From Owenia fusiformis (taxonomy: Eukaryota; Annelida; Polychaeta; Sabellida; Oweniidae), in NCBI GenBank assembly GCA_903813345.2, contig CAIIXF020000006.1:39938848-40002847 (forward strand): a stretch of 64,000 bases of DNA. Direction: 5' to 3'. Positions 32,401 to 58,800 of the stretch are shown one piece after another. Position 1 is the first letter of the stretch, and every line of letters starts with the position of its first letter. A program made the translations under genes and the position numbers. The notes below the pieces were generated by a model that had not been told where the DNA came from, did no database searches, and worked only from the letters and a program-made list of their open reading frames with translations.

Positions 32401-35400
32401 TAATAAGTGGCCTATACATCAATACAGTGCTGAATAAAGGTCAACAAGATACTAGTGTGCATATAAATGTAAAAATTGAAGCAGAATACTCATTTTGAAA
32501 AATCAGATGAATTATTTTTTCCCATGGGGAGATCCCAATGGAGGGTGTATAAGGTCCTTTTCTGGAAAAGTAAAAACTCCAATGTATAAAAGACTCAATA
32601 CGAATAACTTTTTTTCTAGGGAATAATTCCTTTCAAGAAATTATAAAATAAATAAAGTAACCAGCCTAACAGCCCTTTGAAATTTCAACAACGTTTTACT
32701 TTTTTTGTTTTCTTAAGACTTATCTTTTGTTTTTAGGTGAATACGGTAAGAACTTTAAGCCACGTTACTTTATCTTAATGGATGATGGTCCATTCAAAGG
32801 ATTCATTGACGTCCAAGCCAGCCTAACTCAAAAACCTCTGATTAATTTCTTCGTTGAAGGTATGTGCTAATTAATTCTTTCATTGAGCTCAGATTGATAT
32901 ACTTGTACTTCTTCAGGGAAATAGTCAGTAGAGAACAGGAATATCAGTTTTCTAGTTTCCATGATCACTCTACTATACATTTCACCTAGAAATGCATAAG
33001 ATACATGTACTTTGTCAATTTGGATTGTTAAGTATATTTTAGAAAGTACCTTATTAACTTCTAACAGTCATCCAATAAACCATTAATAAGGAACAGACAC
33101 ATAAAAACAAATTCGATAATTATTACTGATAAGCCGAAAGGGTTTCTTATGAAGGTTTCTAGACAAGTCATCCCAAGACAATTCATCCCCATTCCCAAGA
33201 CATTTCATCCAAAGACATCTCATCCCAAGACAACTCATCCACAAGACAACTCATCCCAAGACAACTCATCCCCAAGACAAGTCAACCCAAGACAAGTCAT
33301 CCCTAAGACAAGTCATTCCAAGACAATTCATCAAAAGACAATTCATCCCAAGACAACTCACCCCTAAGACAATTCATCCCAAGACAACTCACCCCTAAGA
33401 CAATTCATCCCAAGACAACTCACCCCCAAGACAACTCACCCCCAAGACAATTCATCCCAAAACAATTCATCCCAAGACAAGTCACCCCAAGACAATTCAT
33501 CCCAAGACAACTCACCCCTGAGAAAATTCATCCCCAAGACAATTCATCCCAAGACAACTCACCCCAAGACAAGTCATCCCAAGACAATTCATCCCTAAGA
33601 CAATTCATCCCTAAGACAATTCATCCCAAGACAACTCACCCCAAGACAATTCATCCCAAGACAATTCATTCCTAAGACAATTTTCCCGAGACAATTCATC
33701 CCAAGTCAACTCACCCCTAAGACAATTCATCCCAAGACAACTCACCCCAAGACAATTCATTCCAAGACAACTCACCCCTAAGACAAGTCATCCCAAGACA
33801 ATTCATCCCCAAGACAAGTCATCCCAAGACATCTCACCCCAAGACAAGTCATCCCAAGACAATTCATCCCAAGACAACTCATCCCAAGACAATTCATTCC
33901 AAGACAATTCATCCCAAGACAACTCACCCCCAAGTCAACATTCATCCCAAGACAACTCGCCCCAAGACAAGTCAATCCAAGACAATTCATCCCAAGACAA
34001 CTCACCCCAAGACAACTCACCCCCAAGACAATTCATCCCCAAGACAACTCATCTCAAGACAATTCATCGCAAGACAACTTATCCCCGAGACAACTCTTCC
34101 AAACTTGAAATATAACATAATTCTATACAGTTAATTTCGAAATGGCACTTGAAAGTTATGTTTTACTTTTAAGTACGGTATCTTGATTCTCAATAGATAA
34201 ATAAGAATATCGAATTGAATATAAAAGTCATAGACATGATTTTCAAATTCAATCATCATTAATCTGAAAATTTATAATTTGAAATCGTATTCCGGATTAA
34301 GCCAAAGATGACATATTGGAATTCAGCAAAATACGTCAATACAAAGACTGAATTAATCTGGGAGAGTCATTCTTATAATACCCCGGATAATAATGAGGGG
34401 TTCTTACATTAAAGAATAATAGTTATAAGTTCTAGTCGTTATTCTATTACAACTATGCTGAAAAACAATGGTACAATTTAGAAGTTTCTGCCAAAATGAT
34501 TTGCTTTGTCCGAATCAATCAACAAAAAAGAACTAAAACTAGACTAAACGAACTACAAAAAATAAAAAATATCAAGTAAATACCACGGTGTTATAACATG
34601 ACGGTTACGTCAAGGCGATTTGCGAAATTTTGCGGTAACGATAACATAAAATGGCGGATGGGAAATACAGCATGTCCTCTTTCTCGCCTGTAGGCAAGAT
34701 TCACAGATAAGATTTACTTTTCAGCTAGTTACATTCGGTGACGTATATATTGATGGTTATAAAGACTGGGTCAAATCTGCCAGGTGGTTTACTAGAAGCA
34801 GAATATAAGCTGTAAACTTACCGACTGATATATCAAAGTTCATAATTTTTAGTCCATTCTCGTGTTTTCTCAGTATATGTGCCTCAAAGCCACTCAAACT
34901 ATTAACTGTAAGTAAACTATGTATGGAAAAGCGATAAAATGACAAATCCAGAAAAGGAACGTGGTATATATTGTAAGTAATAAGGTTTCAAACGCAATGC
35001 CGTTAGACGACTACGTATTAATTATATGGACGGTAACGTTTTGTATGAGTTGTACATTAGATATATAGCGGACGGTTACGTGCATGTACATCTTTCAAGT
35101 CAAGGTTGCTAGTAAGTTCCGATAGCCTTTTTCCATGTCATTGTTATAACGGGTAAGAAATGGAATATTGAATTGCTTATATTTGTTTTCAGGACTCGCA
35201 AGAGACGCTCTTGTTTGAGCCTCAATAGGGCAAGGAAAATTGTGACTTGCTTTATTTATGAAACCAATGAAATTCAGAAAGATAGCAATGAAGAGGCAAA
35301 GGAAGAATTAGCATCACGTACTGATGAATATGGCAAAAATTAATAACAATGGATCGGGGATACATATTTGAACGAGGTTCGCGTAACCCTCGATTTTTTT

Positions 35401-38400
35401 GCGCAAATTCAAAATACATTATTATGGCTTGAGTTGAACATATTAGGTGGTTCCCAATGCTCAATTGGCTTTTTATGATCGTATGTAGGTTACATCTATA
35501 TACCCCGAGGTCGTTAGGCAATGTAGACCATGCCCTTAAGACAAAGATAAACAAATTACTAAATTTTGTGTAGTTTTGAATTTCAAACTCAACAGTTTTT
35601 AGCTTATTATATGTTATCCCCGGGCATCAATTTGCAAAGACTACGTTCAAAATATACATTACGAAATGCATCACCGAATGCGATGCTTACATAAATCGTT
35701 CATCCTTTCATAGATACACAGTAGTAGAAAATGATGTACCAACCTTAGTTTTCTGTTCCATCACGGCCATTTTATTTGATAAACCAATGAACGTAGCCAA
35801 CCAACCTCGTTTTCAGAGGTGGCGTAACCGTCATGCTATAACGTACCGTGAATACAGCATGACAAAATATAAAATGTGTCAGTTTAAAATACAGCATGAA
35901 AAAATGTATATTAAAAAATCAAAGATATTCTATGGCCAAATAGTATGCCAACTGCTAAAATCTGTAAATATTTTTCAAAAATTCTTTCAAGAGTTGAAAT
36001 TAATTGTATAAAATAATGTTATATTTCAAGTTGGGAAGAGTTCTCTCGGTTATAAGTTGTCGTGGGACGAGGTGTCGTGGGGATGAGTTGTCTTGGAATG
36101 AGTTGTCTCAGGGATGAGTTGTCCTGTTACCCTCATGAACATCAAATGCAAGGTTTAGTAGAGTGATGATATGTCAATGAATATAAGCATAGTTGTTGTT
36201 GTTGTTGTTGTTGTTTTGATTTTGACAAAGGCAGTAGAGAATTTCAATCAGGGGATGCACATATAATAGACTGGAAAGCAGAGACAATGAATATAAGCAT
36301 TTTTTTGTTGTTGTTGTTGTTGTTGTTTTGACTTTGGCAAAGGCAGTTGAGAATTTCAATCAGTGAATGCACATATAATAGACTGGAAAGCAGAGATAAT
36401 GAATATAAGCATTTTTTGTTGTTGTTGTTGTTTTGACTTTGGCAAAGGCAGTAGAGAATTTCAATGAGTGAATGCACATGTTATAAAACTGGAAAGCAGA
36501 GATAACATGAATGTGATGTTTTCAGAATACAAGATTGAGAGGACTGAAAAATTCAGAGCAAATACATTTATCATGCGTACGTTTCAACAAAACATGATTA
36601 TTGAGCGCATTTTTTCTGTTGAGTCCGCTACAGAGAGGTATGTACCATGATATACACAAGTACGAGGCGTGATCGGGAATTTCTGGACCGTTGACTCTAT
36701 TTTTGCCATTTTTATCCTTTCTTTTTGATTTTTTCACATAATATAACGCAACTATATAGGATAACACCATGGAGATTTCATTGTTCTATGACATCATTAT
36801 CCTATTATTGTTGTTATGATGGTAACTAGCGACAAAGGTGGAGCTCATAAAAGATACCAAAGGCCCATGTGCAGTATGGCAAGTGATTTTAGACAGTCAT
36901 ATCTTTCACCATGAGTATTTTCTAGGTAAAAATATACAGAGTTTTATTGAAACAACATGTTTAAAGTAACGTCCCCATGGTAGTAAAATATCAATCCCAC
37001 TCTCTAAAAAATTATGGATTGGGACCCCACCTTGTGATCCTTTTAAATTGCAAGGCTTATTCTCTAAAAAAGAGGAGGTTATATTAATTACTTCTGAAAA
37101 CGGGATAGGTATTGAAATAAAATAAAGTTAAAAACCCCATTTCCCATGTTATTTTCCCATAGGGAAAACTCATGCTATCCATTGTTTTCAGCATGATTTT
37201 GGTCATCCAAAATTGACATCTTCAAAACTAGACTTTTATATGATGTTTGGACACTTTGGCCAATGCATAAAATTTCTGTTGATTTTTCAAATTTTTTATT
37301 TTGCTGAGCTCCACCTTGTTGCGTCAATGGTTACCATGGTAACAATAATAATAGGATAATGATGTCATAGAACAATGAAATCGTCATGATGTGATCCCAT
37401 ATATTTGGGTTATATTGTTTGAAAAAATCACTAAGAAACGATAAAAATGGCAAAAAATGGGGCGAATGGTCCAGAAATTCCTGATCACACCTAGTACCAT
37501 TATGTACTTTATAGTACTACAGAGAAGTATGTACCATGATATACACTAGAATGAACCATAATCTGCTTTATAGTACTACAAAGAGTATGTACCATGATAT
37601 ACACTAGTTTGTACCATAATGTACCTTATAGTACTACAAAGAGTATGTACCATGATATACACTAGAATGAACCATAATCTGCTTTATAGTACTACAAAGA
37701 GTATGTACCATGATATACACTAGTTTGTACCATAATGTACCTTATAGTACTACAAAGAGTATGTACCATGATATACACTAGAATGAACCATAATCTGCTT
37801 TATAGTACTACAAAGAGTATGTACCATGATATACACTAGTTTGTACCATAATGTACCTTATAGTACTACAAAGAGTATGTACCATGATATACACTAGTTT
37901 GTACCATAATCACTAAGAAAGGTTTAAAATATTCAAAAAGAGCCAATGGTTCAGAAATTCCTGATCACACCTAGTATGTACCATTATGTACTATATAGTA
38001 CTACAGAAAAGTATGTACCATGATATACACTTGTATTGTGCCATAATGCACTTTATAGTACTACAAGGTGTATGAACCATGATATACACTAGAATGTACC
38101 ATTATGTACTTTTATAGTACTACAAGGCGTATGTACCATGCTATACACTAGCCATATAGTATGTACCATAATGTACTTTACAGTATTTCAAGGCGTATGA
38201 ACCATGATATACACTAGTATGTACCATAATGTACTTTATAGAACTGCAAGGCGTATGTACCATGATATACACTAGTATGTACCATAATGTACTTGATAGT
38301 GCTACAAGGCGTATGAACCATGATATACACAAGTATGTGCCATAATGTACTTTATAGTGCTACAAGGCGTATGAACCATGTTATACACTAGAATGTACCA

Positions 38401-41400
38401 TAAGATACTTTATAGTACTACAAGGCGTATGTACCATAATATACCCTAGTATGTACCATAATGTACTTGATAGTGCTACAAGGCGTATGAACCATGATAT
38501 ACACTAGTATGTGTCATAATGTACTGTATCGTACTACAAGATATATGTACCATGATATACACAAGTATGTGCCATAATGCACTTTATAGTATTACAATGC
38601 GTATGCACCATGATATACACTTTCTAATATGTACCAAAATGTACTTAATAGTACTACAAAGAGTATGTACCATGATGTACTATATAGTACTACACAGAAT
38701 AATGTACCATAATGTACATCAAGTACTACATAGAATATGTATCATAATGTTCTTTCTCGTACTACAGGGAGTATTTACAATGATATATACTAGTATGTAC
38801 CATAATGTTCTTTCTCGTAGTACTGGGAGTATTTACCATGATATACACTAGTATGTACCATAATGTTATGTCTCGTACTACAGGGAGTATGAACCATGAC
38901 ATACACTAGGATGTACCATTATGTACTTTATAGTACTACAAAGAGTATGTACCATGATATATACTAGTATGTACCATAATGTAAGTTATAGTACTACAGA
39001 GAGTATGTATCATGACATACACTAGGATGTACCATTATGTACTTTATAGTACTACAAGGTGTATTTACCCTGATATACACTAGTATGTACCATAATGTAC
39101 TTTATAGTACTACAAAGAGTATGTATCATGATATACACTAGTATGTACCATAATGTACTTTATAGTACTACAAGGTGTATGTACCCTGATATACACTAGT
39201 ACGTACCATAATGTAAGTTATAGTACTACAGAGAGTATGTATCATGATATACATTACTAAGTACCATATTGTACTTTATAGTACTACAAAGAGTATGTAC
39301 AATGATATATACTAGTATGTACCATAATGTAAGTTATAGTACTACAGAGAGTATGTATGTATGTACATGTATGTACTTTATAGTACTACAAAGAGTATGC
39401 ACCATGATATATACTTGTACATACCATAATGTAAGTTATAGTACTACAGAGAGTATGTATCTTGATATACATTACTAAGTACCAATGTACTTTATTGTTC
39501 TACAAAGAGTATGTACCATGATTTATACTAGTATGTACCATAATGTACCTTATAGTACTACAGAGAGTATGTATCATGATATACATTACTATGTACCATA
39601 TTGTACTTTATAGTACTACAAAGAGTATGCACCATGATATATACTAGTACATACCATAATGTAGGTTATAGTACTACAAAGAGTATGTATCATGATATAC
39701 ATTACTATGTACCATATTGTACTTTATAGTACTACAAGGCGTATGTACCATGATATACACTAGTATGTACCATAATGTACTTTATGCAGGGCGTCAAATA
39801 AGGCTCTCCCCATTTACTTTTTTTAATATAGAAGAAATATAGGGTTACTGTATACCATATTAAAGGGAATTCAATTTGCTGATCACACACCAAATTTTAG
39901 GGTGATTGGTTTAATTCAAAAGTTTTTAGAGTATTTGTAGTGATGTCCATATTTCACATTTTTAATAATTTGTATAATTCCTTCAAGCAGCTCGGACAGG
40001 CTCAATCCAACAAGGATTCAATTCTAAATTGTTCACAAACAGGGTTGTTGCACTTTCCAGGCTTTTAAGAGCTTTCTTGATACATTTGAGCAATATTTTA
40101 TGGCCATGAAGTTCCTCCTCTTTGATTAATTTTTCGACCCTGTCATTCATAATTGCAGTTTTAACTTTTCATCGTTCATACTACAGCCTTATTTTTTTTT
40201 TTTTTTTTAAATTAAAAATATTTATTCTCTAAATTAAAATCAAATACATAATAACACTTGACACTTTAAATAAGTGTATCAGCGTGAAAACATTTAAATA
40301 TTAACCCGAGTCACATGGAAATGAGAAAAAAAGACCAATTAAGAATATTTACTCAGTAAAAAGAGAATAAAATTGATAACAATATATAAAATCTACATAT
40401 ATGTTTGTCAGTAATTCAGTTCATCATATGTTGATGTCATATGGATTTTAAAATTCTTTTTAAAACAGTAAATGGAAGGTGATGTTTTCAAAGAAGTTGG
40501 CAGATTATTCCAAAGCTGAGCACCTGAATATTTTATTGAATGTTGACCTATACTTGTTCTAAATTTTTTCATGTGAAGACAATTTTGGAATCTTGTCTCA
40601 TGTTCGTGAAATATTAAATTTGGAGTAAAATAATTTTCAAATATGTCAAAAGGAAAGCCATCGGGTTTTGTTGTGTATTGATAAAGAAATTTTGCAACTT
40701 CAAGCTTATGTATGTCAAAAATATCTAGAAAATTGAGTTGTTTAAAAAGAGGTGGACTATGTGCTAAAAAGTCAGAATTTGTGATTATTCTCACTGCACG
40801 TTTTTGTAACAAAAGCAATTTATTCAAAAAGGTTTTACATGCATTACCCCATATGATGTTGCAATAGTTCAATTGTGATAATATAAGTGAATTATAAATG
40901 GTAATCATGGTTTTTGTATTCAATTTATATTTAATCTTTCCCAGAATACCAATAATTTTTGATATTTTATGTATAACCTTATTTATGTGTTCATTCCATT
41001 TTAATTTACAATCAATTGTTACTCCCAGAAAATTTGTATGCATTACTCTATTAAGAATATTACCCCCTATTTTTATATTAAAATCTTGATTTTCATCAAT
41101 ATTTAACTTTGATCTTGTAAATAGCATATAATTTGTCTTGTCTATATTTAAAGAAAGTTTATTTGATTTGAACCATTCTAATGTCTTTTCCATTTCTAAA
41201 TTTACATTTCTATATAGATCATGAAGATTTTTGTTAGAACATAAGATATTTGTATCATCTGCGAAAATAGTAAATTTAAGAATATTTGAAACCTTATGTA
41301 AATCATTTATATAAAGAATGAATAAGATGGGGCCTAAAACAGACCCTTGAGGTACACCACAAGTGATAATATTTTCTTCAGATAGAGTGTTGTTAAAAGA

Positions 41401-44400
41401 AGTAATGATTTTTCTATCCGATAAATAGCTTTCGAACCAATTTTTTGCAACATTGCGAATTCCAAAATTATCAAGTTTTTTTAGAAGAATTTCATGATTT
41501 ACTGTATCGAAGGCTTTCGATAAATCTAAAAATATTCCAATAGCATGAGTTGAGCTTTTATCTAAAGATATCCTCACTTCTTCCAAGAAGGAGAGGATTG
41601 CCATATAAGTTGAATAATGTTTTCTAAAACCAAACTGATTTTTTAATAAAAGTTTGTATGTTTCAATGAATGTTATTAATCTATTTTTCATGATCTGTTC
41701 TAAGAGTTTAGAAAAGACACTAAGTAGAGATATGGGTCTATAGTTTGAAAATTTTGAAGTGTTTCCTTTTTTAAAAAGTGGGATAACTTTGGCTGTTTTC
41801 AACTTAGTGGGAAAAACACCTGTATGGATAGATAAGTTTGCTATATGAACAAATGGTAAAAGTAAGTTATTTCTTGCGTGTTTAACTACTATTGGTTTGA
41901 ATTCATCTAGGCCTGGTGAGCAATCTTTTAAAACTGACATTAAATTTTCGATTTCATTCTTACTCACAGGAGTAAGTTCTAAAGAAGATTCATTGATTTC
42001 CATAAATGTTAAAGGGGACGTTTTTGAACTTATCTTTGATGCTAATTTAGGTCCAACATTAGAAAAAAATCTGTTAAAATGATTAGCAATATCTTTTCTA
42101 TCAGTCAAAGTATCATCTCCATCATAAAATTTATCTGAAAAACTGAATCACATTTTTTGCGGTGAAGTAAATCATTTATAACTGACCAAGTATTCTTGAT
42201 ATTATTGCTTGTTTCAGTAAATCTATCACAAAAATATTTCCTTTCTGCTTTACGGATTAATTTATGGAGTTTGTTTCGAAAAGTTTTGTATTCAGCTTGA
42301 TTCTGTTTCGTTGGGTGTTTCAAAGTATTTCGATAAAGTTTATTCTTCTGTTTCACAGATGTTAGTATACCATGTGAGAGCCAAGGCTTAATTGGGTTCT
42401 TGTGAATTTTTGTATTTTTGACTTTTACAGGGAAATGTTCATCATATTTTCTACTAATTTTGTCTGCAAATAAATTATAAGCCACATTTACATCAACCTT
42501 TTCATTAATTATACCAGTCCAATCTATATCTTTCAATGAATCACTAAAATTATTAATTGCACTCAATGGATATTTCCTAAAAGTGATTTGTTTATTTTCA
42601 CAAACATTTTGATGGTGTGATGTAAGGGCAAAGATAGGATGGTGATCAGAAATGGGAAATGAAAGAAGACCACTTTTGATTACATTATTTGAATTAGAAA
42701 AGATATTATCAATAAGCGTAGCACTTTTTTCTGTTATTCTGGTAGGTTTAAAAATCAATGGGTTGTAAGATTGGGAGTATAATAGATTAAGAAAATTCAA
42801 CGTTTGTGCATCACTTTCAGTTTTAAGTAAATCAATGTTGAAATCACCCATTATAAAAGAAATTTTATGTTCCCTATCAATTTTAGAAAGTAGACTCTCA
42901 AAACTTTCAAGAAAAGATGCCATGTCTGTATTTGGTGGTCTATATATTATAGTAATAACCATATTTTTCTCATTTTTTCTAGGAATTTCAATAGATAGAG
43001 ATTCACATGCTTTATAATCTAATTTGAGGTCATCCCTATGTTTAAAGTCAATGCCTTTTAAAATATGAAGTGCAACACCACCCCCTGGTCTATCTTTCCT
43101 AGAGTTAAAAATACTATTATAATTAGAATCATTTTCCTCATAAATAGGCTCTAAGTTTGATGTAAGCCATGTTTCAGTCATACCAATAATTGAAAGATTA
43201 TTTTTTAACAAGAAATATTGGAGCAATTTTATTAGGAAGATTTTATTATTGATTTTTAAAGGGTGATCAGCATTTCCCATAAGCTTTAGGATTATATATG
43301 GGAAAGTATAATAAATTTAAGAATTAAAAAAGTTAGGGGGGGAGAACAGACTTATTTGACGCTCTGTAGTACTACTGAGAGTATGTACCATGATATACAC
43401 TAGTATGTACCAAAATGTACTTTATAGTACTACAGGGAGTATGTACCATGATATACACTAGTATGTACCACAATGTCTTTATAGTACTACTAAGGGCATG
43501 TACCATAATGTACTATATAGTACTACATAGAATATGTACCATTATGTACTTTATAGTATTACTGAGAGTTTGTACCCTAATGTACTATATTGTACTACAA
43601 AGAATATGTACAGGGTTGTACCATAATATACTAGTTTGTACCATAATATACCAGTTTGTACCATAATATACTAGTTTGTACCATAATATCCTAGTTTGTA
43701 CCATATTATACTAGTTTGTACCATAATATACCAGTTTGTACCATAATATACTAGTTTGTACCTGTCCATAATATATAAGCTTGTACCATAATATTCTATA
43801 TAGTACTACATAGAATACGTACAGGGTTGTACCATAATATACTAGTTTGTACCATACTATAGAGGTTTGTGACATATTTGTTTAGTTTGTAACATAATGT
43901 ACTTGCACTTCACATCCTGTAATGTTTTTTTTGTAGGGAGTCCTGGGTCGAAACACTTCTGTCTGTTTCACGGAAGGTGAGAGAGGTAAGGTCCTAGTGT
44001 TTTCAGGAGTTTTCCCCAATGTTGATAAAAAATCACAATTCTGCCCAAAGATTTTCATAATTTTCAAGTAGGATTTTAAGTGAAAGCCTATTTTTAAAAT
44101 ACCGCCATTCTCATCATATTGTGTAGTATGTTTGTTAACAAACTGTAGTCCATATTTGATGAGGTTTCGGGGACATATTAACCAGGAATATATTCCAAAT
44201 CCAGGTATATATATGTCCTGCTTCGACGAGGATCCGGGATATATAAATAATTTATTCTCCCCAAGTAGTTCTCCGGGACGTATGATGGCCAGATATCTCG
44301 ACCTGGGAATTCTCGTCCATATCTTAGCACTGAACTAAATACTCAAGTCCCACAGTTAAACATTTTAGATTTAATATTTGCAATTTTACTTACTTTAAGA

Positions 44401-47400
44401 TTCCAGATTTCAGACTTTTTTTAAGCTGAGTCAGTCAGAAGATGGACATCTTCATCACATCTTAAATCTAACGGCATACATGAACTTATCGATTATGTTC
44501 AAAAAAGATTTGTTCAATTTGAAGCAGATTGAAAGGATGAGTCTGGGAATGAGTCTGGGTATCGACTTAGAAAATATTGAAAAGTGTAATGTCTCAAAAA
44601 CCAACTCAATCACACATATTATTAAACTTCAATATCTTATCCTTCCTTTGAGATTACAAAAATATCAATATGTTTCTCAATTGATGAATAATATTGGCAT
44701 TAAAGACAGTGCATATCACTTTGTCAGAATTGAAAAAAAAATCAATGGCAAATATTAAATGAATTATTTAATACAAAAAATTTGAAACATATCCTCCAAA
44801 ACATTGCTTACCTTCTTTGTATAGACATTGAATGGTATTTCTGGATAAGTGAATTGGTGTTTATCTGGGTAATCAAGGGATTATAGTCACTCAAAGTTAC
44901 TGAGCATCCAGTTTTGAGACTTCAATTGTGTTGGTGAAGTTACACACATTTCAGTCAAATTCATGCTGAGCACAACATTTTGGTTTCAATTTTATAATCT
45001 CTATACATGACCCTGGTGATGAAGAGTCAGAATCAGTCAAAAAAAACAAACCGGAAATCTGTGGTCATTGTGAAAACTAATAGTGAAGCAACTTTTTTTC
45101 TGATATTTCTTACATCAAATGACAGCCATTTTTCCCCCTTCATATTAAACTGGCGGGAAATTCAAAAATTTGAAAAAAAATTAATCTTTAAATAGATTTC
45201 AAAAATATGATTTTCTTTTTAATTCTTCATGGGTCTTAAGTTATTTCTTCTTTGTATGTCATACATGTTGCCATTGGTGTTTTTTCTATGACAATGACCC
45301 TTTTTTATTTGTTAAATACTTATTCTGACTCTCAGCAGGGGGTTAGGCAGGGGGCATATATCCAGACACATCCTTTGATCATGACAGGATTATGTATCGA
45401 TATCGTAAACTGAATTCAACAATGTTTTTCTCTTAAACCATTTATTGAAATCATTCTGTAAAAACACGGTCCTTTGTGTAATTTTGACTGATTGACAACA
45501 ATTTAATGCGAAAATTAGTTATATACATTTTATATAACTGTTTTTGTTAACATTTTTTGTTTTTTAGTGCAATTTTTTTGTTCCATGCTACCAATTCTTG
45601 AGAATGAAATAAAATGTCTTTCCGAACCTTGCTGGAAAAAAATAGCATATGCAACATTTTCTTAGACCTCTCAATATTATAGTTATACAAAGGAAATGCT
45701 GGTTGATTTAAGAAAAAGTATGCAAAAACTTAAAACAAAACCCCCCAAAATAGATAAACGATAGATAATAGATTGACGATGTGTGAAATTCAGAAATTTT
45801 CAGAAATTTTTGATGACTGGTTTAAGAGAATCGTGTGTTCAAAAAGTTCGCCATATCGATACCCATTCTTTAACCTTTTTTCACTTTTTGAGCTCTTTAT
45901 GCCTCAAAATTGGTGCAAAGTTCTAATAGATAGTCGATTGCTAATATTTATAGAACCTTTAGAGGAAATACACTTTAAACCAAAACGATTGACTTGTCGT
46001 TTCGAAATTTGGGAAATATTAGATAACATCGTTTGTGGCTAAGTTTGATAACCATTGACATTGATATACTCACTCTATAGACCTAAGTAGGTATTTTATG
46101 ATTAAATATACCTAATATACCTATACATGATTTGAATAAAAAATTGGTTTACCTTTCAAAGGTCACTGAAGGTCAGTTTTTAAATCCTGAGACATTGTAG
46201 ATGTTTCAAAACATAATTGGTAAAATTCAAGCAAGTTGAAAATGGCCTATTGTACCGATTATTAACATCTGGAGTCTAATAAAAATAAGAATAGGAATTA
46301 GAGATTGGAAATTGATCAAGTTCAATTTCAGAATCCAGATGCCAAATTGAATAAGATACATATGACACGTCGCAAAAAGTTCGCCCACGTATTGTTACAC
46401 ATTTTTGCGTTTAAACACCACAGAATGTGACGTTTTTTGAGAAAAATGTACACAAGTCATATGGAAATTTTCGTCCTCCACATCTGCCTCTATATCTCAA
46501 AATATTAAAGGCGAATAACTCTCGTTTATGTATTCACAATGGGCTAGGAGAATCATAAAACACGAATCAATTGATATTTTAGTTGAAATAAATATACGTG
46601 TTGCTGTGCTTGAAAATAGGCGAATGGCGTAAATTAGCCCTATTTTAATGAATTTTTAAAACCTTTCGTCCTCCACTTTTCCACATACAACAGAACACAT
46701 ATACTTTTGCGAACAAAATCAACTATTTATTAATAAACTAGAGTTTAAGAGAAAAATAATCATGTATGATTTATTAAAAAATGATTTGTATTTTTTGTTT
46801 AATGTACACCTGAAAAGTTGAAGGTAACAAAAAATGAGCAAAAAGGTCGCTGTCAACAGATTCAATTTTTCAAACTCTATGACGTCACAATATGGGACAC
46901 TTATTTAATTCATCCTATGAAATAAAACTTCCATCTACCTTTATCAAGACGAAAAATAAGTGTAATAGTAATATATTTTTTGAGTTATGAGCGTTTAAAG
47001 ACGAAAAATAATTCAAAATGTAACGTGTCAACAGGGGATATTTGCCAGATGTTTTGGTAAAAAACTATTTTTTTTTAAAAATAACGCGCAAGAATTGTGA
47101 ACAGAGTGTAGCTGATCTAAAAACTTCATCGAAACAGCTTTAAAATGATCTATAACTTTAATTAGAATATTATCTTGATCCGGGGAATCAAAGTTACATT
47201 CACGCGATACCCTTAAAAATCAAATGCGCCACCTTTTTGCGACACGTCTATGACTTAATATGATTGAATTGAATTTAAAATTATTGAAATAAGAAGACGA
47301 TAGTTTCGATATCTTACTCAGTACTGTTGACTTTCTAGCAGGATACAATCATATTGATTTTTTCGAAATGTTCAAAATGGCGTAGAATCTCAACCGAAAG

Positions 47401-47818: not shown

Positions 47819-47989
47819 AGTCTATAACAATTACTTAATCTGATTTTTTAATGATGTCTTTGGAAATGCGATATGGTATTTTGTAATTTGTTTAGCAAAC
47901 TAATGAATAGAATATACGACTAACATTATAATAATGTCTGTTATGTTTCTTTTTGAGGAATATAATAATGCCAACGCTTTAACCTTCTA

Positions 47990-49190
47990 TGGACTAATTG
48001 TTGATGTAATATAAAAGATACCGTACTTTGACCTTTTAATTAGTGGCTGATTGTTAAAGATTCAATCATAAGAATGACCCGACTATGAGTTCTTTTAATG
48101 AATTATGATGGAAATGTTTGACAGTGTGATGATGGTGAATATAACGGAGACAACATTTTAACTTTTTTGTTACTGATTGTGGGAAGGTCAGGATATAATC
48201 TAGACAATATTTTGAAATATAATGGAGACTTATTTTGCTCTTTCAGTGACTTATGATTTGAAGGTTGAAACATTATAGAGATCATACTTTGACCTTTCAA
48301 TGGCTTCATAATGGTAAGGTTGAAATATAATAGAGGCCATACGATGACCTTTCAATGGCTTCATAATGGTAAGGTTGAAATATAATAGAGGCAATACGAT
48401 GACCTTTCAATGGCTTCATAATGGTAAGGTTGAAATATAATAGAGGCCATACGATGACCTTTCAATGGCTCCATAATGGTAAGGTTGAAATATAATAGAG
48501 GCAATACGATGACCTTTCAATGGCTTCATAATGGTAAGGTTGAAATATAATAGAGGCCATACGATGACCTTTCAATGGCTTCATAATGGTAAGGTTGAAA
48601 TATAATAGAGGCCATACGATGACCTTTCAATGGCTTCATAATGGTAAGGTTGAAATATAATAGAGGCCATACGATGACCTTTCAATGGCTTCATAATGGT
48701 AAGGTTGAAATATAATAGAGGCAATACGATGACCTTTCAATGGCTTCATAATGGTAAGGTTGAAATATAATAGAGGCCATACGATGACCTTTCAATGGCT
48801 TCATAATGGTAAGGTTGAAATATAATATAGGCCATATACGATGACCTTTCAATGGCTTCATAATGGTAACGTTGAAATATAATAGAGGCCATACGATGAC
48901 CTTTCAGTGGCTTCATAATGGTAAGGTTGAAATATAATAGAGGCCATACGATGACCTTTCAATGGCTAATGATTTGAAGGCTGGGATCATATAAACAACA
49001 TTTTGACATTTCAGTAATTGACGGTGTATAATGGAGACACCCCTTTGTCCTTTTCAATGACTGACGTTGGAGTGGTTGGAAAATAATGCTGGCCAGACTT
49101 TGACCTGACAATGACTTATGGTGGGTCAAGTACAAATGAGCTTTGCTGAATGGGGGAGAAGGCGTATAATAATGTCCGACCATGATCGTC
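47990..49190. repeat. 55-bp minisatellite, block 2
   Basis: Same family as 5130-7560. A homogeneous core at about 48290-48960 holds about 12 near-identical 55-bp units (GGTAAGGTTGAAATATAATA and GATGACCTTTCAATGGCTTC), varying mainly at one base (GGCCAT or GGCAAT). Degenerate copies flank it. Each core unit has ATG/GTAAGG, a donor-like site on the plus strand. It fills the gap between the two convergent genes. Confidence 0.9.
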
Positions 49191-49304
49191 AGTTTCCCAT
49201 ACGTTTATAGGGCCATAACACATTGAATGACTAAGTATTCTTGAAATTAAAATTTCATTTGACTTTACAATAATTTACATTCATATATTACGTTCAAGTA
49301 TTGC

Positions 49305-49310
49305 TTTATT
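49305..49310 (-). terminator. Candidate poly(A) signal for MAN2C1
   Basis: AATAAA on the minus strand lies about 370 nt after the stop codon. No nearer canonical hexamer was seen, although AATAAG occurs earlier. Confidence 0.4.
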
Positions 49311-49675
49311 CATCCTTGACATGTGTTTGGCTTCTATTCTTGGGAAACTAGTTTATCTTGAAACTACCTCAAATAAATTAAAAAAATATGACATAATAAG
49401 ATTTGCATACAATCCACATTCATTAAAATAAGAAACTGTTTGTCCTTTTTATAATTATGAAATAAAGTCAGATTTCAAATGGTAAACATCGACTACCGAG
49501 TGTCCCTTGCTCCTTTTCCCAAGGTGTTTCCTTGACTACTTACATCGTTTCTAAAATGTTGTCCAAATTAATACAAAACATCTTATTTGAATCTCAGACT
49601 TTTTGAATGGGGTGTCTATCACGTCCTGTGTTTTCTAAGGCTTTTCATCACTTTGAAGTGTTTGTCGTTGTTATT

Positions 49676-49891
49676 TTAGAATTTCACTTTGAAAGTTTTA
49701 ACTTGGAAAGGTTTATAATCAACAGCAATGCTTGTTTTGTTTGGCGTTCGTATTTCTTCTGGATCTACGTCTTCTAGCATATTGCAGCTGTGGACGCAGG
49801 AGAAACGAAGCGACGTCGTAATAGTCGCAACACAAGTTCCTCCAAATGATTCGTATGCTCGAATAATAATAGCATTATCAGAATCTTCACT
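49676..49891 (-). CDS. MAN2C1: MAN2C1 last exon and stop
   Basis: After TTTCATTCCAG, 71 codons run from [20 protein letters not shown] to [14 protein letters not shown] and TAA. Human RLYEAHGSHVD...FSPFQVLSLLL aligns; the C-terminus has normal length. Confidence 0.95.
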   Translation of the reverse strand, partial: SEDSDNAIIIRAYESFGGTCVATITTSLRFSCVHSCNMLEDVDPEEIRTPNKTSIAVDYKPFQVKTFKVKF

Positions 49892-52800
49892 CTGGAATGA
49901 AAAATGGCAAAGTAATGGTCTGTTAAATATTAGTAAAAGTAAATAGCAGACTGAATGAATGAATAAATACACTTATACACTTATAATAGAATTGATCATT
50001 ATTGCGAAACATGGTTGGTTTTGGTTGTAAATTGTCAAAAATGTATTTAGAGGGATGATTCAAAAATAAGGGACAAAATTTACGTTACAATCACGACTCC
50101 TAAATATAATACCTTTTTTATTGTATCAATAATGATGCTATCTGTGTCAACTTGAAAGAATGGCACGTTAAGTAAACTCTCTTTAACACCATTGATTGGT
50201 TTAACAATGAGAGGGTTGTTCAGGTTTGCTGCATTGCGGATCACGCCGGCATCTTGGAATGTGTTCTCGTGTGGTAGAATTGCATACGTGAATGTGTGAT
50301 TGCCCATGTCAGCGACCTCATCGGGGGCTTTCGGCGATTTCAACCTACACGAGAAAGTTAGGAGAGAATTTGATTAACCTGCTATGCCACTCGAATGCAA
50401 TGCACTACTTGTTACGAGAGCTATTCTTCGAGATGAGGTACATTTTAAATTTTCCCAGGAAACGATAGACCAGTGCTTTCATCAAAAGGGAGGTCAAGCT
50501 ACACTTTTCAATAAAACTTGTATTTGAACGTGAAGAACTATAGTCGTATAGAAAATAGCTGGAAACACAGAATTTGAGGGATATTGAGACTAGAACAGAA
50601 TCCACGGGGTCTTATCATAACACGTTCACGTTCTCTTAAAATCATGTAACTGAACCGCACTAACACGTGCTTACCTTTACGCGTTTCATCTAAACCAAAG
50701 TATACAGTTAACACCAATATGTTCAAATATAATCAATAGAGGAGTTTTTTTAAAATGTGTACGTGAATACATGTATGTAATATTATTACATACAAGGACT
50801 ACTACCGACCCTTTCATTGTTTTTTTCTAAAATAATTCAGTGACAACGCATATTTTCCCTATACAATTATACTCAATTGGTCATGCAAGTAAATGTTACA
50901 CAAGCGAACTAATCATGAGAGGACTCTACTCATTTAACTATATTTTGTCTTTAAACGCGTGTTTCTTGGCTCCCCAAATAAATGCAGTTCAGAAACTATA
51001 GATTGGCAGAAAGGAAGATTTTAAAATGCAGCATGCAAGGATAACTTCAAATGGATAACTTATAAGAATAACCTCAAATAAATAACTTACAAGGATAACC
51101 TCAAATGGATAACTTACAAGGATAACTTCAAGTGGATAACTTACATGGATAACCTCAAATGGATAGCTTACGAGGATAACCTCAAGTGGATAACTTACAA
51201 GAATAACCTCAAATGGATAACTTACAAAGATAGCCGCATCACATTCTCGCTGGTTTGGAATCCATATTTGCAGTCGTTCAGTATTGCTACACCAAAGTTG
51301 TATTCTGATAAGTCCGCCCATTTGTGAGTGCAAACCTTAAAAAAACACATTTATAACTAGACTTTGGAAATTGAACAAGTTCAATTTCAGACTCCAGATT
51401 AAGACCTTTTTTAGCCGAGTCATCCAGAATAAGCCGAGTCATCCAGAATAAGCTGAGTCATCCAGCATAAGCCGAGTCATCCAGAATAAGCAGGTGGATA
51501 GCTGGACTGATGGATGAATGGATGGATTGATAGGAGGAAGGATAGGACAGAATAGGAAGGAAGGATAGGATAGAATAGGAAGAAAGGAGAGGATAGTATA
51601 GGGTATGAAGGATAGAATAGGATACGATAGAACCCGAAGAAAGAATAAGATAGGACAGAATAGGAAGGGCAGGATAGGAAGGAAGGATAGGAAGGAAAGG
51701 AAAGAAGGATAGGATTGGATAGGATAGTTGGGATGGATATTATAGTCGAGTCATCCAAAATAGCCAAGTCATCCAGAATAGGCTGAGTCATCCAGAATAA
51801 GCCGAGTCATCCAGAATAAGCCGATGGATGGATGGATTGATGGATGAATGGATGAATTCATAGGATAGGAAGGATAGGACAGAATAGGAAGAAAGGATAG
51901 AATAGGATAGGATAGGAAGGATAGAATAGGATATGATAGAATCCGAAGAAAGAATAAGATAGGACAGAATAGGAAGGATGGGATAGGAAGGAAGGAAGGA
52001 TAGGATAGGAAGGATAGGAAAGAAGAATAGGATTGAATAGGATAGGTGGGATGGATATAGCCGAGTCGTCCAGAATAAGCCGAGTCGTCCAGTCCTATCC
52101 CTCTTTCCTATCCTTCTTATCCTATCCTTCCTTCCTATCCTATCCTATCCTATCCTTCCTTCCAATATAGGAAGGAAGGAAGGATAGGATAGAATAGGAA
52201 GAAACGATAGGATAGTATAGGATAGGAAGGAAGGATAGGATAGGAAGGATAGGAAAGAAGGATAGGATTGGATAGGATATAGGATAGGATATAGGATAGG
52301 ATATAGGATAGATATAGGATAGGATATAGGATAGGATAGGATAGGATAGATGGGATGGATGGAAGGATTTTTCAATATTTTCTTCACTACTCTTGACTTT
52401 CTATCAGGATACCATCATATTGATTTTTTCGATCTTGCGCGTGGTTATTGGCAGGTTAAAAAAAGTCATAACTTTTGAACCGGAAGTCGGATCGAAATTT
52501 GATTTACAGATTCGGATTCCTGAGAAAATTCTACCCTTAATTCATAACTCATATGTTAAATTTGGAGAACTTTTTATTGTGACCTACTTTCTGGACGCCA
52601 TATTTCAAAATCGGTAAGCGTAATCAAAAATCTAATGTCATATCTTTGCTTTGGCTTTTTCTAAGCTACATGATGAAAAAAAGATTTAGGAGTTACGATA
52701 AACAACGACGAAGATAAATGACAGAATGTTGAAAATGTAAGATTTGACCTAGTTCTTGACCTTTGACCTAGATAAAAATTTGACCCAATTTCCGAGAAAC

Positions 52801-55800
52801 TAGATCTAGGACCTAAATGGACCATATATAAGACTTGACTCAATATCTTCTAGTTAACGAGAAAACTGGGAAAGAAAAATAATAAAGAATAATAATAAGA
52901 AGAAGAAGAATACTGACGAAAACAATAGACTCCAGATTTACATCTGGAGTCTAATAATATTGGTTTACCCCGCCCCAATTGAATATAATATTTAATGTAA
53001 AATATGTATATATTTCGCTTAACCCCATATAGCCTACCTCAAACTTGAACCAATCCCAGGATGTATTTGCATGAGTAGGGCGTCTAACAAAGCCGTATTG
53101 AGTGTCATACGTTGCTACGTCACTGCGACAATTCACTGGGAATTCAACCTTTAAGAACTTGTGATCTTCGTGCCAGGCAACCTTAACATAAAGCATTACA
53201 TTATTGTATAAAATTATATGTCGCATATTAGATGAACAAGATAGGTTCAATATTTTGGAACAGGTTGGAGGTGGTCGAGAGGCTCTGCAAATTAATCTCG
53301 TAGGTCCGAGCTGGCTTTGCGCGTGATCTTTAATGTTTGGGGATTGTTCTATATGGGAATGACATTGTTCTTTATGGGCTGGGGTGTGTTCTATATGGGT
53401 ACACGTAGAATATGGTCTTGGAGGTAGTCAAGACTTGTAGAAAGAAGCTTGAAAGTTGCTGGCGTAATCTGGAAAATTATCAAATCGATGAACACATTCC
53501 AATCGGGACATCACTGATATATGTTTATATCACGTGGGTAATACTTTTGAACCAATCAAATTCCTTCGGCTATCTTCGTTGCGAAACAATACCTTCGGTA
53601 TCGGTCCAACATTGTGATTCCATTTCAATCGGTTTATTGAATTAAAACGGCATCCTCCTAACACATTCATCCAGAACTCGTACCTCCTCTTCCAACCTGC
53701 GATCAGCTATTTAGTATTGGTCAGGAAAAATGGTCACTGGGGGAAGGAAGGAACATGTGGATAATGTCTGGAGCCCGGTGTTCAGAGAATGTTATGACTG
53801 AAACGTACCTCAGTATTAAACCTCAAGTATGGGCTTTCAGCATCAAGCACGATGTTCTGTATGATATTGCTGCTGTCGCTTATCTTCAAATTCACCTACA
53901 AACAAACACATATATATATTTCGTTTTTTTAAGTAAATCAAGAAGGTAAGTCAAAATACTACTGCTGTATGTACTAACTTCGAAGGTCCATCTGAACTAT
54001 ACAGTCTTCCAGGCCCATAGCCAGGGGGTGTGCAAACCATTTATGGGACAAAACACGTTCAAAATAATGTTTACACAATTTAAAGCACCGTTCGAGTGAA
54101 TTTGGTCTTGGGCTAAAATGGTCATATGTAAATCCCCTTTTTTCAAAAGTGAACCCACTGGGCAAAAGCTGGCCATGGGGCTCTTCTAACAGATCCCTAA
54201 CCAGGAGGATTACAGATTGTTTTTTTAAATTGCTTACAAATTCAAAGCGCTGAAACCCATGCCCTGTAAGTATTTCAAACAGCAAATCTACTTTAAAGTC
54301 TTGACTTTAATATGACGACAAATAGGTGGAAATCTCTTGAATTTTGTTAAGAAACTATCAACTTTTAATTTCTAGTTTAATTTTTTATATAAAACGTAGC
54401 ATACATTGATGGAACTAATTGTTTCTTACCTTTATCTCGACTCTAAGGCGACTCTTCTCCACAATTCTTGCAGCTTCAATCACTTCAAATACCTCTTTCC
54501 TAATTAAAACGTATGTCTATCATGTTTAACGGACTAGTTTCTCGTTGGATGTCATATTAAGACCCTTTCAAATTGTTCTTCAATTATATTTTTTCTGATA
54601 TTCATAACAAATGTGATTATCACATTATAAATATTTATTTATTTATCATAAAAATATATAAAACATGAAAGATATGTCACAATCTATATAAGACACCACC
54701 GTGGCAAATAAAAGACATCTCATGTCTTAAGACTATTCTAAATACTAAATGTTTCTTAAAGGTGCAACAATTAATGCAGATGGACCATTCAACGATCATT
54801 GAAGAGTGTCAAAATATATTCAAGGTTGGATGTTTCATCATGAATTAGACATATTTTTATTATCTCCAACGAAACCCCCTGAATGAACATTATTTCAGCT
54901 GATATTTCTCTTGAAACTTGGTGGCTCTTAAAAATCTATAAATGGGACTCCCTTTATAGGAGCTTTGAACTGAATTTACACTTCTTAATCCTAAATCCAT
55001 ACATTTTAAGAAAACAGGTATGTCAAAGAAGATGTTAAGCCAAATGTTGCCCTGATAGCTTAGAAAAAGTAACAATTTTCAAATTTTCTCTGTATATCCT
55101 TTGCTGCCCCTTTAATCGCAAAACATGAACAGACTTTGTCACGTGATCCAAAAGGTATCCGAAAGGGAACTCCCGATTGCCCAACTAATTGAAGGGGGGG
55201 GGGAGATGGTGAAAATGGAAAATAAAGCGTATATTACCTTGTTTCGAGATGATAGTGCTCAACATTCCATGCATCATATGAAGCAGGCCTATCTGTGTAA
55301 AGAACAAACTGGTTTCCACACCCGCCATCAATGCATTCCCTGAAATAGGTATCACGCTCATTAATGTAAAGAACAAACTGGTTTCCACACCCGCCATCAA
55401 TGCATTCCCTGAAATAGGTATCACGCTCATTAATGTAAAGAACAAACTGGTTTCCACACCCGCCATCAATGCATTCCCTGAAATAGGTATCACGCTCATT
55501 AATGTAAAGAACAAACTGGTTTCCACACCCGCCATCAATGCATTCCCTGAAATAGATATCACGCTCATTAATGTAAAGAACAAACTGGTTTCCACACCCG
55601 CCATCAATGCATTCCCTGAAATAGATATCACGCTCATTAATGTAAAGAACAAACTGGTTTCCACACCCGCCATCAATGCATTCCCTGAAATAGATATCAC
55701 GCTCATTAATGTAAAGAACAAACTGGTTTCCACACCCGCCATCAATGCATTCCCTGAAATAGATATCACGCTCATTAATGTAAAGAACAAACTGGTTTCC

Positions 55801-58800
55801 ACACCCGCCATCAATGCATTCCCTGAAATAGATATCACGCTCATTAATGTAAAGAACAAACTGGTTTCCACACCCGCCATCAATGCATTCCCTGAAATAG
55901 ATATCACGCTCATTAATGTAAAGAACAAACTGGTTTCCACACCCGCCATCAATGCATTCCCTGAAATAGATATCACGCTCATTAATGTAAAGAACAAACT
56001 GGTTTCCACACCCGCCATCAATGCATTCCCTGAAATAGATATCACGCTCATTAATGTAAAGAACAAACTGGTTTCCACACCCGCCATCAATGCATTCCCT
56101 GAAATAGATATCACGCTCATTAATGTAAAGAACAAACTGGTTTCCACACCCGCCATCAATGCATTCCCTGAAATAGATATCACGCTCATTAATGTAAAGA
56201 ACAAACTGGTTTCCACATCCGCCATCAATGCATTCCCTGAAATAGATATCACGCTCATTAATGTAAAGAACAAACTGGTTTCCACACCCGCCATCAATGC
56301 ATTCCCTGAAATAGATATCACGCTCATTAATGTAAAGAACAAACTGGTTTCCACACCCGCCATCAATGCATTCCCTGAAATAGATATCACGCTCATTAAT
56401 GTAAAGAACAAACTGGTTTCCACACCCGCCATCAATGCATTCCCTGAAATAGATATCACGCTCATTAATGTAAAGAACAAACTGGTTTCCACACCCGCCA
56501 TCAATGCATTCCCTGAAATAGATATCACGCTCATTAATGTAAAGAACAAACTGGTTTCCACACCCGCCATCAATGCATTCCCTGAAATAGATATCACGCT
56601 CATTGATGTAAAGAACAAACTGGTTTCCACACCCGCCACCAATGCATTCCCTGAAATAGATATCACGCTCATTAATGTAAAGAACAAACTGGTTTCCACA
56701 CCCGCCATCAATGCATTCCCTGAAATAGATATCACGCTCATTAATGTAAAGAACAAACTGGTTTCCACACCCGCCATCAATGCATTCCCTGAAATAGATA
56801 TCACGCTCATTAATGTAAAGAACAAACTGGTTTCCACACCCGCCATCAATGCATTCCCTGAAATAGAAATCACGATCATTAATGTGAAGAACAAACTGGT
56901 TTCCACACCCGCCATCAATGTATTCCCTGAAATAGATATCACGATCATTAATGTAAAGAACAAACTGGTTTCCACATCCGCCATCAATGCATTCTCTGAA
57001 ATAGATATCATGATCATTAATGTAAAGAACAAACTGGTTCCCACACCCGCCATCAATGCATTCTCTAAAATAGATATCATGATCAATTATGTAAAGAACA
57101 AACTGGTTTCCACATCCGCCATCAATGCATTCCCTGAAATAGATATCACGATCATTAATGTAAAGAACAAACTGGTTTCCACATCCGCCATCAATCCATT
57201 CTCTGAAATAGATATCATGATCATTAATGTAAAGAACAAACTGGTTCCCACACCCGCCATCAATGCATTCTCTAAAATAGATATCATGATCATTAATGTA
57301 AAGAACAAACTGGTTTCCACATCCGCCATCAATGCATTCCCTGAAATAGATATCACGATCATTAATGTAAAGAACAAACTGGTTTCCACATCCGCCATCA
57401 ATGCATTCTCTGAAATAGATATCATGATCATTAATGTAAAGAACAAACTGGTTCCCACACCCGCCATCAATGCATTCTCTAAAATAGATATCACGATCAT
57501 TAATGTAAAGAACAAACTGGTTTCCACACCCGCCATCAATGCATTCTCTAAAATAGATATCACGATCATTAATGTAAAGAACAAACTGGTTCCCACCCCC
57601 GCCATCAAGGCATTCTCTAAAATAGATATCGGGACCATTAATGTAAAGAACAAACTGGTTCCCACACCCGCCATCAATGCATTCTCTAAAATAGATATCA
57701 GGACCATTAATGTAAAGAACATACTGGTTCCCACATCCGCCATCAATGCATTCTCTTAAATAGAAATGAAGATGATTTATAATTATTGAAAACAGTTTTT
57801 CCATCGAAAGTGCTGCTTAAAGTGAAAGTATAAATTCACTTACTTCTAATTCTGAAAAACGTACTCAAGTTATGTGTTTGTGGTAATATATACATGTTCG
57901 TCAACATGGCAATTAAGTAGTATTAACTTACGTCATAATAACAAAAACACGTATTTCTAGTCTGGAAATTGTACCCAAGGATACTGATTCGTATAAGAAA
58001 ACAACTAAATGTAATAAAAGTAATAAAATAAGGAAATCAAATAGGTTGGAATTCGCATTTTGGTAGCCCATGGCCAGCTGTAAGGATACATTGATCTAGT
58101 TGTGTCAATGTATAACTACTGTAGAGCATTGACATGTCAACCGAAGGTGAATGGGCGGGAAGTACAACTTGATGATTTCGAAGCCAATTTTGAAAGTTGA
58201 AAATATGGAAAAAGGGATATGTCAGCATTTATTCTTTACATTCGTCAAGCTTTACCGTCTTGGTTTTATATTGCGGTGGGGGTGGTATTGGGTCACGTGG
58301 TATACATGTGATTGATCCATAAAAGGCTTATAGGACCACATATAAGCTAAGGGCAATCCCCTCCTACTAATACCAAATAATTACGAAAGCTATTCACTTC
58401 TTGCGAGTATAGCGCTAGTGTTTCATTCATTCATTCAAACTCCTATTCTATTGATTGTACCTTTCCATCTACGAGACAATAATTGTGTGATTTGAAAAGA
58501 ATTGCAATATACATCTCTGACAAACCCTGACACTTGAAACACGAACGAACTATCATATATTGGCAACATTGATTACGTCATTGGTTGTACCTTTTCAAAC
58601 TTTGCAATCTGCGCAAGTTAATCTTATTTTGCTTGGACAAATTGCCTCCAACAACCTATGACATCAATCTAGCCAATATGTTACAGCTTCTTTGCTTTAT
58701 TAATAGGTTGCAGATTTTATTAAAAAGTTTATTTATTTTGAGAACTTCTCAATGTACCTTCCATTTGATTTCATCTTCAGAGAGACTACCTTGCCAATCT

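Follow-up and report, generated by a model that had tools for sequence, protein, structure and literature searches.

Several tandem arrays in the annelid Owenia fusiformis are built from units that contain an exon-intron border, and we consider them probably to be 'mirage' minisatellites, that is, tandem duplications spanning a splice junction that are tolerated since the exon-proximal splice site is the one used. This reading draws on what was observed directly: the anatomy of the arrays, their reading frames, the splice signals retained in their copies, their presence in further, unrelated genes, and a single public protein model free of the repeats. The founding duplication would have involved a short segment that by chance straddled an exon-intron border, and the array would then have been enlarged and homogenised through slippage or unequal exchange. 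With a unit that holds the whole border, one complete border would stay beside the exon body, namely the first donor in a donor array and the last acceptor in an acceptor array. Splicing at this exon-proximal copy would discard all other copies as intron, leaving the array nearly invisible to the protein and free to drift to dozens of copies. We infer both the mechanism, slippage or unequal exchange, and the near-neutrality of the arrays; that transcripts are spliced at the exon-proximal copy is suggested by the reading frames and one public gene model. Among the causes offered by the original prediction, the best fit is tolerance, combined with slippage or unequal exchange of the ordinary kind.

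Anatomy of the arrays in the window

Arrays were located with Tandem Repeats Finder in the window, the whole 64-kb stretch of Owenia DNA that was analysed (Table 1). As had been predicted, they sit in two neighbouring genes, MAN2C1 (alpha-mannosidase 2C1) on the minus strand and an AKT-type PH gene on the plus strand, the latter identified by a PDB search, Pfam having given no match for the PH piece. From residue 34 of the public Owenia model P0001 onward, all 25 of 25 MAN2C1 introns are GT-AG with 0 mismatches; the C-terminal part beyond P0001 was read from the window, and its 0 mismatches are by construction.

Table 1. Arrays, exons and inserted elements in the window
Feature	Position	Strand	Remarks
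69-bp array in MAN2C1	55296..57764	-	Tandem Repeats Finder: x 35.8, 97%
27-bp array at MAN2C1 donor	51036..51232	-	Tandem Repeats Finder: x 7.3, 85%
58-bp satellite, first block	37494..39785	+	Tandem Repeats Finder: 58 bp, about 80%, for both blocks taken together
Second block of 58-bp satellite, with shorter derivatives, past LINE	43367..43903	+	Tandem Repeats Finder
112-bp array in intron before exon 36526	36176..36505	+	Tandem Repeats Finder: x 3.0, 89%
MAN2C1 exon	55238..55339	-	start is exonic part of last 69-bp copy
MAN2C1 exon, donor repeated in 27-bp array	51226..51335	-	
AKT-type PH gene exon	36526..36637	+	donor 36638 repeated in 58-bp satellite
Next PH-gene exon (R-ESWVETLLSVSRKVRE)	43937..43985	+	read by eye from sequence
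Element inside 58-bp satellite	36657..37493	.	inverted ends seen by eye
LINE inside 58-bp satellite	40408..43316	-	endonuclease and reverse transcriptase frames

The 69-bp unit consists of 25 nt of the intron's 3' end, the acceptor AG and 43-44 nt of the start of a MAN2C1 exon. It is present in 36 in-register copies, every one of which retains the AG (36/36), while the 25-nt intron-end part is diverged in the outermost copy; point changes among the copies fall in ordered blocks. P0001 contains the exonic part once and skips all extra copies, the acceptor it uses being that of the last copy, and this exon-proximal copy restores the conserved protein. The 27-bp array repeats the donor TTT/GTAAGT of exon 51226-51335, overlapping the exon by its last 7 nt, and keeps the GT in six of its seven full units; a partial eighth unit lacks it.

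The 58-bp unit likewise carries an exon end and donor, CTACAGAGA/GTATGTACC and variants. The first unit past the inserted element agrees with the exon end and donor at 36637/36638 at 29 of 30 positions (CTACAGAGA(A/G)GTATGTACCATGATATACAC), and later units are more diverged. This satellite is interrupted by a dispersed repeat and the LINE, and its second block stops 33 bp before the next PH-gene exon (43937); of 40 places scored, 39 elsewhere match the left part of the inserted element (36657-36800). The score of the 27- and 58-bp units against their junctions was reached in 0 of 500 shuffles, and at the three window junctions (69-, 27- and 58-bp arrays) the unit has intron and exon in the order of the genome. 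Within the 324 kb of sequence searched, the 58- and 69-bp units are confined to their own loci.

The claim of three clear junction arrays and a probable fourth thus stands for the 69-, 27- and 58-bp arrays, all of them clear and spanning a splice site, and falls for the 112-bp array. The latter ends at 36505, 20 bp short of the exon start at 36526, and neither includes nor directly abuts the acceptor. The closest local match of its unit is a T-rich stretch within the exon (P 0.014 over 15 aligned columns), and we rejected it as a junction array.

Recurrence in other Owenia genes

Junction-spanning arrays were also found on other Owenia chromosomes, in unrelated genes, which bears out the proposal that the phenomenon recurs across the genome. 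In an unbiased survey of C1 (18 evenly spaced 10-kb samples), one sample of the 18 held an array of eight 81-bp units on an alpha2-delta donor. All eight units retain GTAAGT (8/8), and reading past the first donor leads immediately to a stop, as reading past the first donor of the 27-bp array also leads, by our reading, to a stop. A kinase exon has an array at its acceptor. A further set comprises the 14 arrays, among those listed, that carry a consensus donor three times; six of these 14 have Pfam matches above the curated cut-off. Arrays occupy both borders of a tetraspanin-like exon and of a UDP-glucose dehydrogenase exon, and these two of 12 exons point to local susceptibility. Locus L054, where a 15-bp array lies at the donor of a kinase, was left out of the counts, its similarity not being significant (P 0.11). 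A 98-bp array lies near a junction and does not span it.

Chance, targeting and other explanations

The original prediction had called independent origin at several junctions hard to ascribe to chance, a view that one test favours and several others do not. According to the exon score, 12 of the 14 listed consensus-donor arrays start at an exon-like end, compared with 3 of 13 single copies (P 0.0016), or 3 of 12 when the single copies come from the C1 samples alone (P 0.0027). The score threshold of 3.2 behind these numbers was set afterwards (at 3.3, 11/14, P 0.009), and the score is passed by between 1/10 and 1/4 of random positions. For AGGTAAGT alone the figures are 7/8 arrays against 3/8 single copies (P 0.06), and with Pfam-supported exons only, 6/14 against 3/13 (P 0.25). 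The comparison is of arrays with single copies, the 12 arrays of the control 8-mer standing outside it, and its requirement of three exact copies favours young arrays. The exon-end test finds arrays anchored at junctions in excess of what a wholly neutral model would give; targeting of junctions is no more than suggested.

A stronger version of this idea is that splice junctions are real hot spots, where arrays are born or homogenised at several times the rate found elsewhere, for example by way of R-loops, pausing or AGGT-core microhomology. We judge it unlikely. Besides the exon-end result and the exons arrayed on both borders, it has in its favour the numbers of unit matches, 568 for AGGTAAGT x3 and 515 for AGGTGAGT x3 where the backward controls give 328 and 132, and the three junction arrays in the window against 0.38-0.93 expected, in a window selected for its arrays. 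When whole arrays are counted in the listed stretch, however, AGGTAAGT x3 shows no excess over the backward control 8-mer (8 versus 12), nor does its ratio of arrays to single copies in the C1 samples differ significantly (8:8 versus 12:18, P 0.37). By coverage, MAN2C1 junctions are depleted, with 2 of 50 in arrays against 23-25% of 2000 intron positions, a test that is not fair for births, being dominated by a few long arrays and affected by selection, which removes exonic arrays. Births at junctions in the two unbiased samples occur at about the frequency of random births, with two seen against 0.7-2.8 expected by chance: one in the C1 samples, where 0.4-2.5 were expected on assumed junction numbers, and one among the kinase exons, where about 0.3 was expected. 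The exon finder was specific, reporting 40 exons in real sequence and 0 in shuffled sequence, but missed most MAN2C1 exons. Against hot spots there also weigh the single-copy sample of 13, the threshold chosen post hoc, the weaker P values in the subsets and the bias of the triple-copy rule.

Could the 69-bp repeats instead be coding? The unit amounts to 23 codons, the frame is open across all 36 copies (over 860 aa), three shared variable exonic sites are synonymous by our reading, and shared variable sites number 5/25 in the intronic part against 3/44 in the exonic part (P 0.13). Two more frames, however, one on the minus strand and one on the plus strand, are also open for hundreds of codons, as expected of a unit whose length is a multiple of three. 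At six more exonic sites the variation is confined to a single copy, nearly always changing the amino acid by our reading, and stops interrupt the 81-bp array and, on the same reading, the 27-bp array. Translation as an in-frame coding repeat is very improbable, and we rejected it on its absence from P0001, the other open frames and the stop in the 81-bp array. Unrelated satellites lying at junctions by chance might be expected where array coverage is 17% locally against 3.2% in the 18 C1 samples, and where the 112- and 98-bp arrays come near junctions without spanning them. This remains the reading for the latter two arrays; for the 69-, 27-, 58- and 81-bp arrays it is excluded by units that contain the exon sequence itself, and as a general account it is extremely unlikely. 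Assemblies often give wrong copy numbers for arrays. Nothing in favour of assembly error, or of the retro-insertion of splicing intermediates raised in the original prediction, was found at these arrays, and we give this pair of explanations hardly any credence: the ordered blocks of point changes are unlike an assembly echo, and retro-insertion finds no support in units where exon and intron follow the order of the genome and no exon is joined to another.

Known boundary repeats and the place of the Owenia arrays

The original prediction knew of no precedent for such satellites, but amphioxus mirages and human exon-intron boundary repeats are already in print; Owenia adds annelid cases to a known type of junction array. 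As far as the available text of the amphioxus reports goes (PMC3087553, PMC3902484), mirages are known in Adh3, TnC, the globins BflGb6/BflGb9 and PGBD5, as tandem units of 10-160 bp spanning a 5' or 3' exon border, with splice signals retained in many copies and the mRNA reportedly undisturbed. The Owenia units of 69, 27, 58 and 81 bp resemble these in including the exon-intron boundary and in retaining the splice signals described above. They differ in their host, an annelid and so a different phylum (a difference of place, not of anatomy), in reaching 36 copies and 2.5 kb where the amphioxus arrays have 2-7 copies in the passages giving numbers, and in a recurrence established by an annotation-free scan. 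The definition of a mirage also takes in length differences among individuals and somatic change; the Owenia data come from one assembly.

In human genes of segmental duplications, variable internal tandem repeats occupy exon-intron boundaries, with 27 intron modifications in the portion of that report available (PMC2812944). The Owenia units lie similarly at exon borders. The human repeats, on the same partial source, can alter splicing or make new introns, whereas those of Owenia are fully intronic in one public model. Intron gain by tandem duplication, as far as it is covered in the sources at hand, resembles the Owenia case in duplicating a segment with splice-site potential; the Owenia arrays, in contrast, multiply existing borders, and no new intron was seen.

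In the literature searched, as far as its available text extends, single amphioxus genes were the only reported sites of mirages. The Owenia total is ten protein-supported genes (MAN2C1, the PH gene, alpha2-delta, the kinase and the six Pfam-supported donor-array genes) and six more exon-like loci. Mirages in so many genes of an annelid suggest something more widespread among animal genomes than a peculiarity of lancelets. A bolder extension, which we think rather unlikely, is that in Owenia, and perhaps in many satellite-rich animal genomes, junctions are hot spots of array birth or homogeneity several times above elsewhere; by extrapolation each genome would then contain hundreds or even thousands of arrays at junctions, supplying spare splice sites for new introns and exons. 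If the mirage reading holds, the splicing machinery manages 36 almost identical acceptors in tandem, the arrays are natural test constructs for exon-proximal site choice, and the proposed route from mirage to new intron would become testable in chromosome-scale genomes.

Arrays at the junctions of two neighbouring genes

The right-hand gene of the window is MAN2C1 (alpha-mannosidase 2C1, GH38) on the minus strand, which the public Owenia fusiformis protein model P0001 matches at 98% identity over 70% of the query. Mapping P0001 from residue 34 on, extended by a C-terminal part read off the window, gave 25 introns, all 25 bounded by GT-AG. P0001 is marked partial and is without C-terminal exons that stand open in the window. 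A piece of the neighbouring PH gene matches AKT3 in a PDB search (E 7e-8), though nothing in Pfam, and a further exon was found with an AKT1 query sequence. The last exon, delimited by eye, ends in a stop, and there is no kinase domain.

The original prediction had placed three clear arrays and a probable fourth, with units of 69, 27, about 60 and about 110 bp, in or against splice sites. Tandem Repeats Finder gave periods of 69, 27, 58 and 112 bp; the units of the first three hold a junction, whereas the 112-bp array stops 20 bp short of the PH gene exon in the table and does not contain its acceptor. Every 69-bp copy keeps the AG (36/36) and joins the last 25 nt of the intron, diverged in the outermost copy only, to 43–44 nt of exon. 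No difference separates the three exon-nearest copies, and farther out (copies 6–12) blocks of three units are repeated, as expected under growth by unequal exchange or slippage. GT is kept in six of the seven full 27-bp units, and the first 58-bp unit matches the exon end plus donor at 29 of 30 positions; this satellite, with a dispersed element and a LINE, makes up almost the whole of a 7.3-kb PH gene intron.

Features of the window and its right flank
Feature	Location	Strand	Remarks
TGF-beta-family frame	3560-4489	+	PF00019
PH gene	32737-47625	+	AKT-type PH domain
15-bp x 61 array	33161-34100		intron between two PH gene exons
Exon of PH gene	36526-36637	+	end and donor recur in 58-bp satellite
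Dispersed repeat and LINE	36657-43316		inside 58-bp satellite
27-bp array	donor of MAN2C1 exon 51226-51335	-	donor repeated; 7-nt overlap with exon
69-bp array	most of intron before MAN2C1 exon 55238-55339	-	36 in-register copies
98-bp x 6.2 array	L009 55-663, just past right end		MAN2C1 intron

The 98-bp array leaves a gap of about 60 bp to the donor of the upstream MAN2C1 exon and does not span the junction. Another MAN2C1 intron stretch (51413-52368) mixes AGGAT-type simple repeats with 19-bp AGCCGAGTCATCCAGAATA arrays, sequence related to the 15-bp array seems to recur on the opposite strand at 36055-36123, and a 55-bp satellite family occupies two sites 42 kb apart (5577-6912 and 48261-48967). 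Arrays (at least 2.5 copies, period at least 10) cover 17% of the window versus 3.2% of 18 samples from contig C1, and the window is therefore a local hot spot. Since it lies (at C6:39,938,848-40,002,847) 0.84–0.90 Mb from the end of the 40.84-Mb contig C6, a subtelomeric effect is possible. The genome searched comprises 498 Mb; the published assembly is given as 505.8 Mb in 12 chromosomes, with 43% repeats and 26,966 genes (PMC9977687).

Recurrence elsewhere in the genome

The recurrence of junction-spanning arrays is established. When 10-kb stretches were sampled at 18 even intervals along C1, one of them (L018) proved to contain eight tandem 81-bp units repeating the last part of an exon with its donor, GTAAGT standing in 8/8 units, in an alpha2-delta calcium-channel gene (PDB match, E 1e-27). 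We then searched the genome for triple occurrences of a consensus donor 8-mer, spaced 38–68 bp apart, with the 8-mer written backward as control. AGGTAAGT gave 568 matches versus 328 for its control and AGGTGAGT 515 versus 132, totals that count units rather than arrays. Among the matches listed, which cover about the first 100 places, AGGTAAGT formed 8 arrays (to C3:3.3 Mb), AGGTGAGT 7 (C1 to 19.4 Mb), one being the other strand of a AGGTAAGT array, and backward AGGTAAGT 12, mostly of period 24–33 (to C3:5.1 Mb).

Upstream flanks were examined for all 14 listed donor arrays, using an exon score that combines acceptor and codon bias over the stretch ending at the first donor. An exon-like stretch ended there in 12 of the 14 (L033 and L040 failed), at a threshold of 3.2 that was fixed once the scores were known and that one of the 12 meets exactly. 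The score passes 24/25 true MAN2C1 donors, some of them in its training set, and, of random positions, a tenth to a quarter. For six exons there is support from Pfam, with matches that exceed the curated cut-off (Muted/BLOC1S5, NIF phosphatase, neurotransmitter-gated channel, UDP-glucose dehydrogenase, MRPL52 and Rieske, the last also matching PDB 3d89); two matches are weak (tetraspanin, E 0.058; DUF4904, E 0.017), and four exon-like stretches have no Pfam match. The array starts 11–60 nt inside the exon in 11/12, the sequence at the twelfth, L039, being too short for this to be seen. In two of the 12 exons (L029 and L035) a duplication separate from the donor array also spans the acceptor (120 bp x 2.0; 130 bp x 2.1). 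Among 20 protein-kinase-exon loci, chosen by us as partial stop-free matches among 144, one (L058) has a degenerate acceptor-spanning repeat of about 22 bp (0/2000 shuffles); another, L054, failed the same shuffle test.

Chance, hot spots and tolerated duplication

Whether junctions attract arrays is a question on which the tests disagree. Exon-like stretches precede 12/14 donor arrays versus 3/13 of these 8-mers where they stand singly, a set made up of 12 from the C1 samples and one from flank L010 (Fisher P 0.0016). The difference persists with the window included (single copies 5/16, P 0.0035), with C1-sample single copies alone (P 0.0027) and at threshold 3.3 (P 0.009), and P stays below 0.05 with as many as about 60% of the single copies taken to be true donors; it weakens for AGGTAAGT alone (7/8 versus 3/8, P 0.06) and on restriction to Pfam-supported exons (P 0.25). 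Because three exact copies are needed, this test favours young arrays.

In the coverage test, direct repeats span 2/50 MAN2C1 junctions versus 23–25% of 2000 random intron positions, a depletion that arises because a few long arrays drive the coverage. If the probability that a random founding includes a junction is the sum of units over length, the C1 sample gave 1 case against 0.9–2.5 expected (80–230 junctions assumed; 0.4–1.2 for at least 2.5 copies) and the kinase loci 1 against about 0.3 (42–44 junctions), an unbiased total of 2 against 0.7–2.8. The window gave 3 against 0.56–0.93 (24–40 junctions assumed, P 0.02–0.07) or, for at least 2.5 copies, 0.38–0.64 (P 0.007–0.03), an excess from a sample biased by having been chosen for its arrays. 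Array number showed no excess among the matches listed (AGGTAAGT 8, control 12), also relative to C1-sample single copies (8 and 18; P 0.37). Thus, of the genome-wide process originally proposed, recurrence holds (L018, donor arrays, L058), while enrichment is suggested by the exon score and not by coverage, birth or array-number tests. That junctions are hot spots of arrays seems to us rather unlikely; ordinary tandem duplication, tolerated where it spans a junction, is the likely origin.

Splicing and relation to mirages

P0001 reads one copy of the exonic part of the 69-bp unit and no repeats. The copy adjoining the exon body restores the conserved protein sequence, and from sequence we infer splicing at the exon-proximal copy of the arrays. 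Reading through the first donor gives DEVGK-stop in the 81-bp array and, by our reading, MRLSL-stop in the 27-bp array. In frame, the 69-bp array stays open through 860 aa; this is no sign of coding, since a second frame on the minus strand and one on the plus strand are likewise open over hundreds of codons. Its shared variable sites (exonic 3/44, intronic 5/25) do not differ significantly (P 0.13).

By anatomy, we file the Owenia arrays as putative mirages, the amphioxus minisatellites whose unit spans an exon-intron border (PMC3087553). The PGBD5 paper describes cases of 60 and 108 bp and cites TnC (PMC3902484), and a human study treats tandem repeats at exon-intron boundaries (PMC2812944). 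Literature searched for mirage minisatellites and annelid boundary repeats, with subscription papers mostly outside its scope, held no annelid case. The junction arrays of Owenia are real and recurrent, and extend a known kind of array to another phylum.
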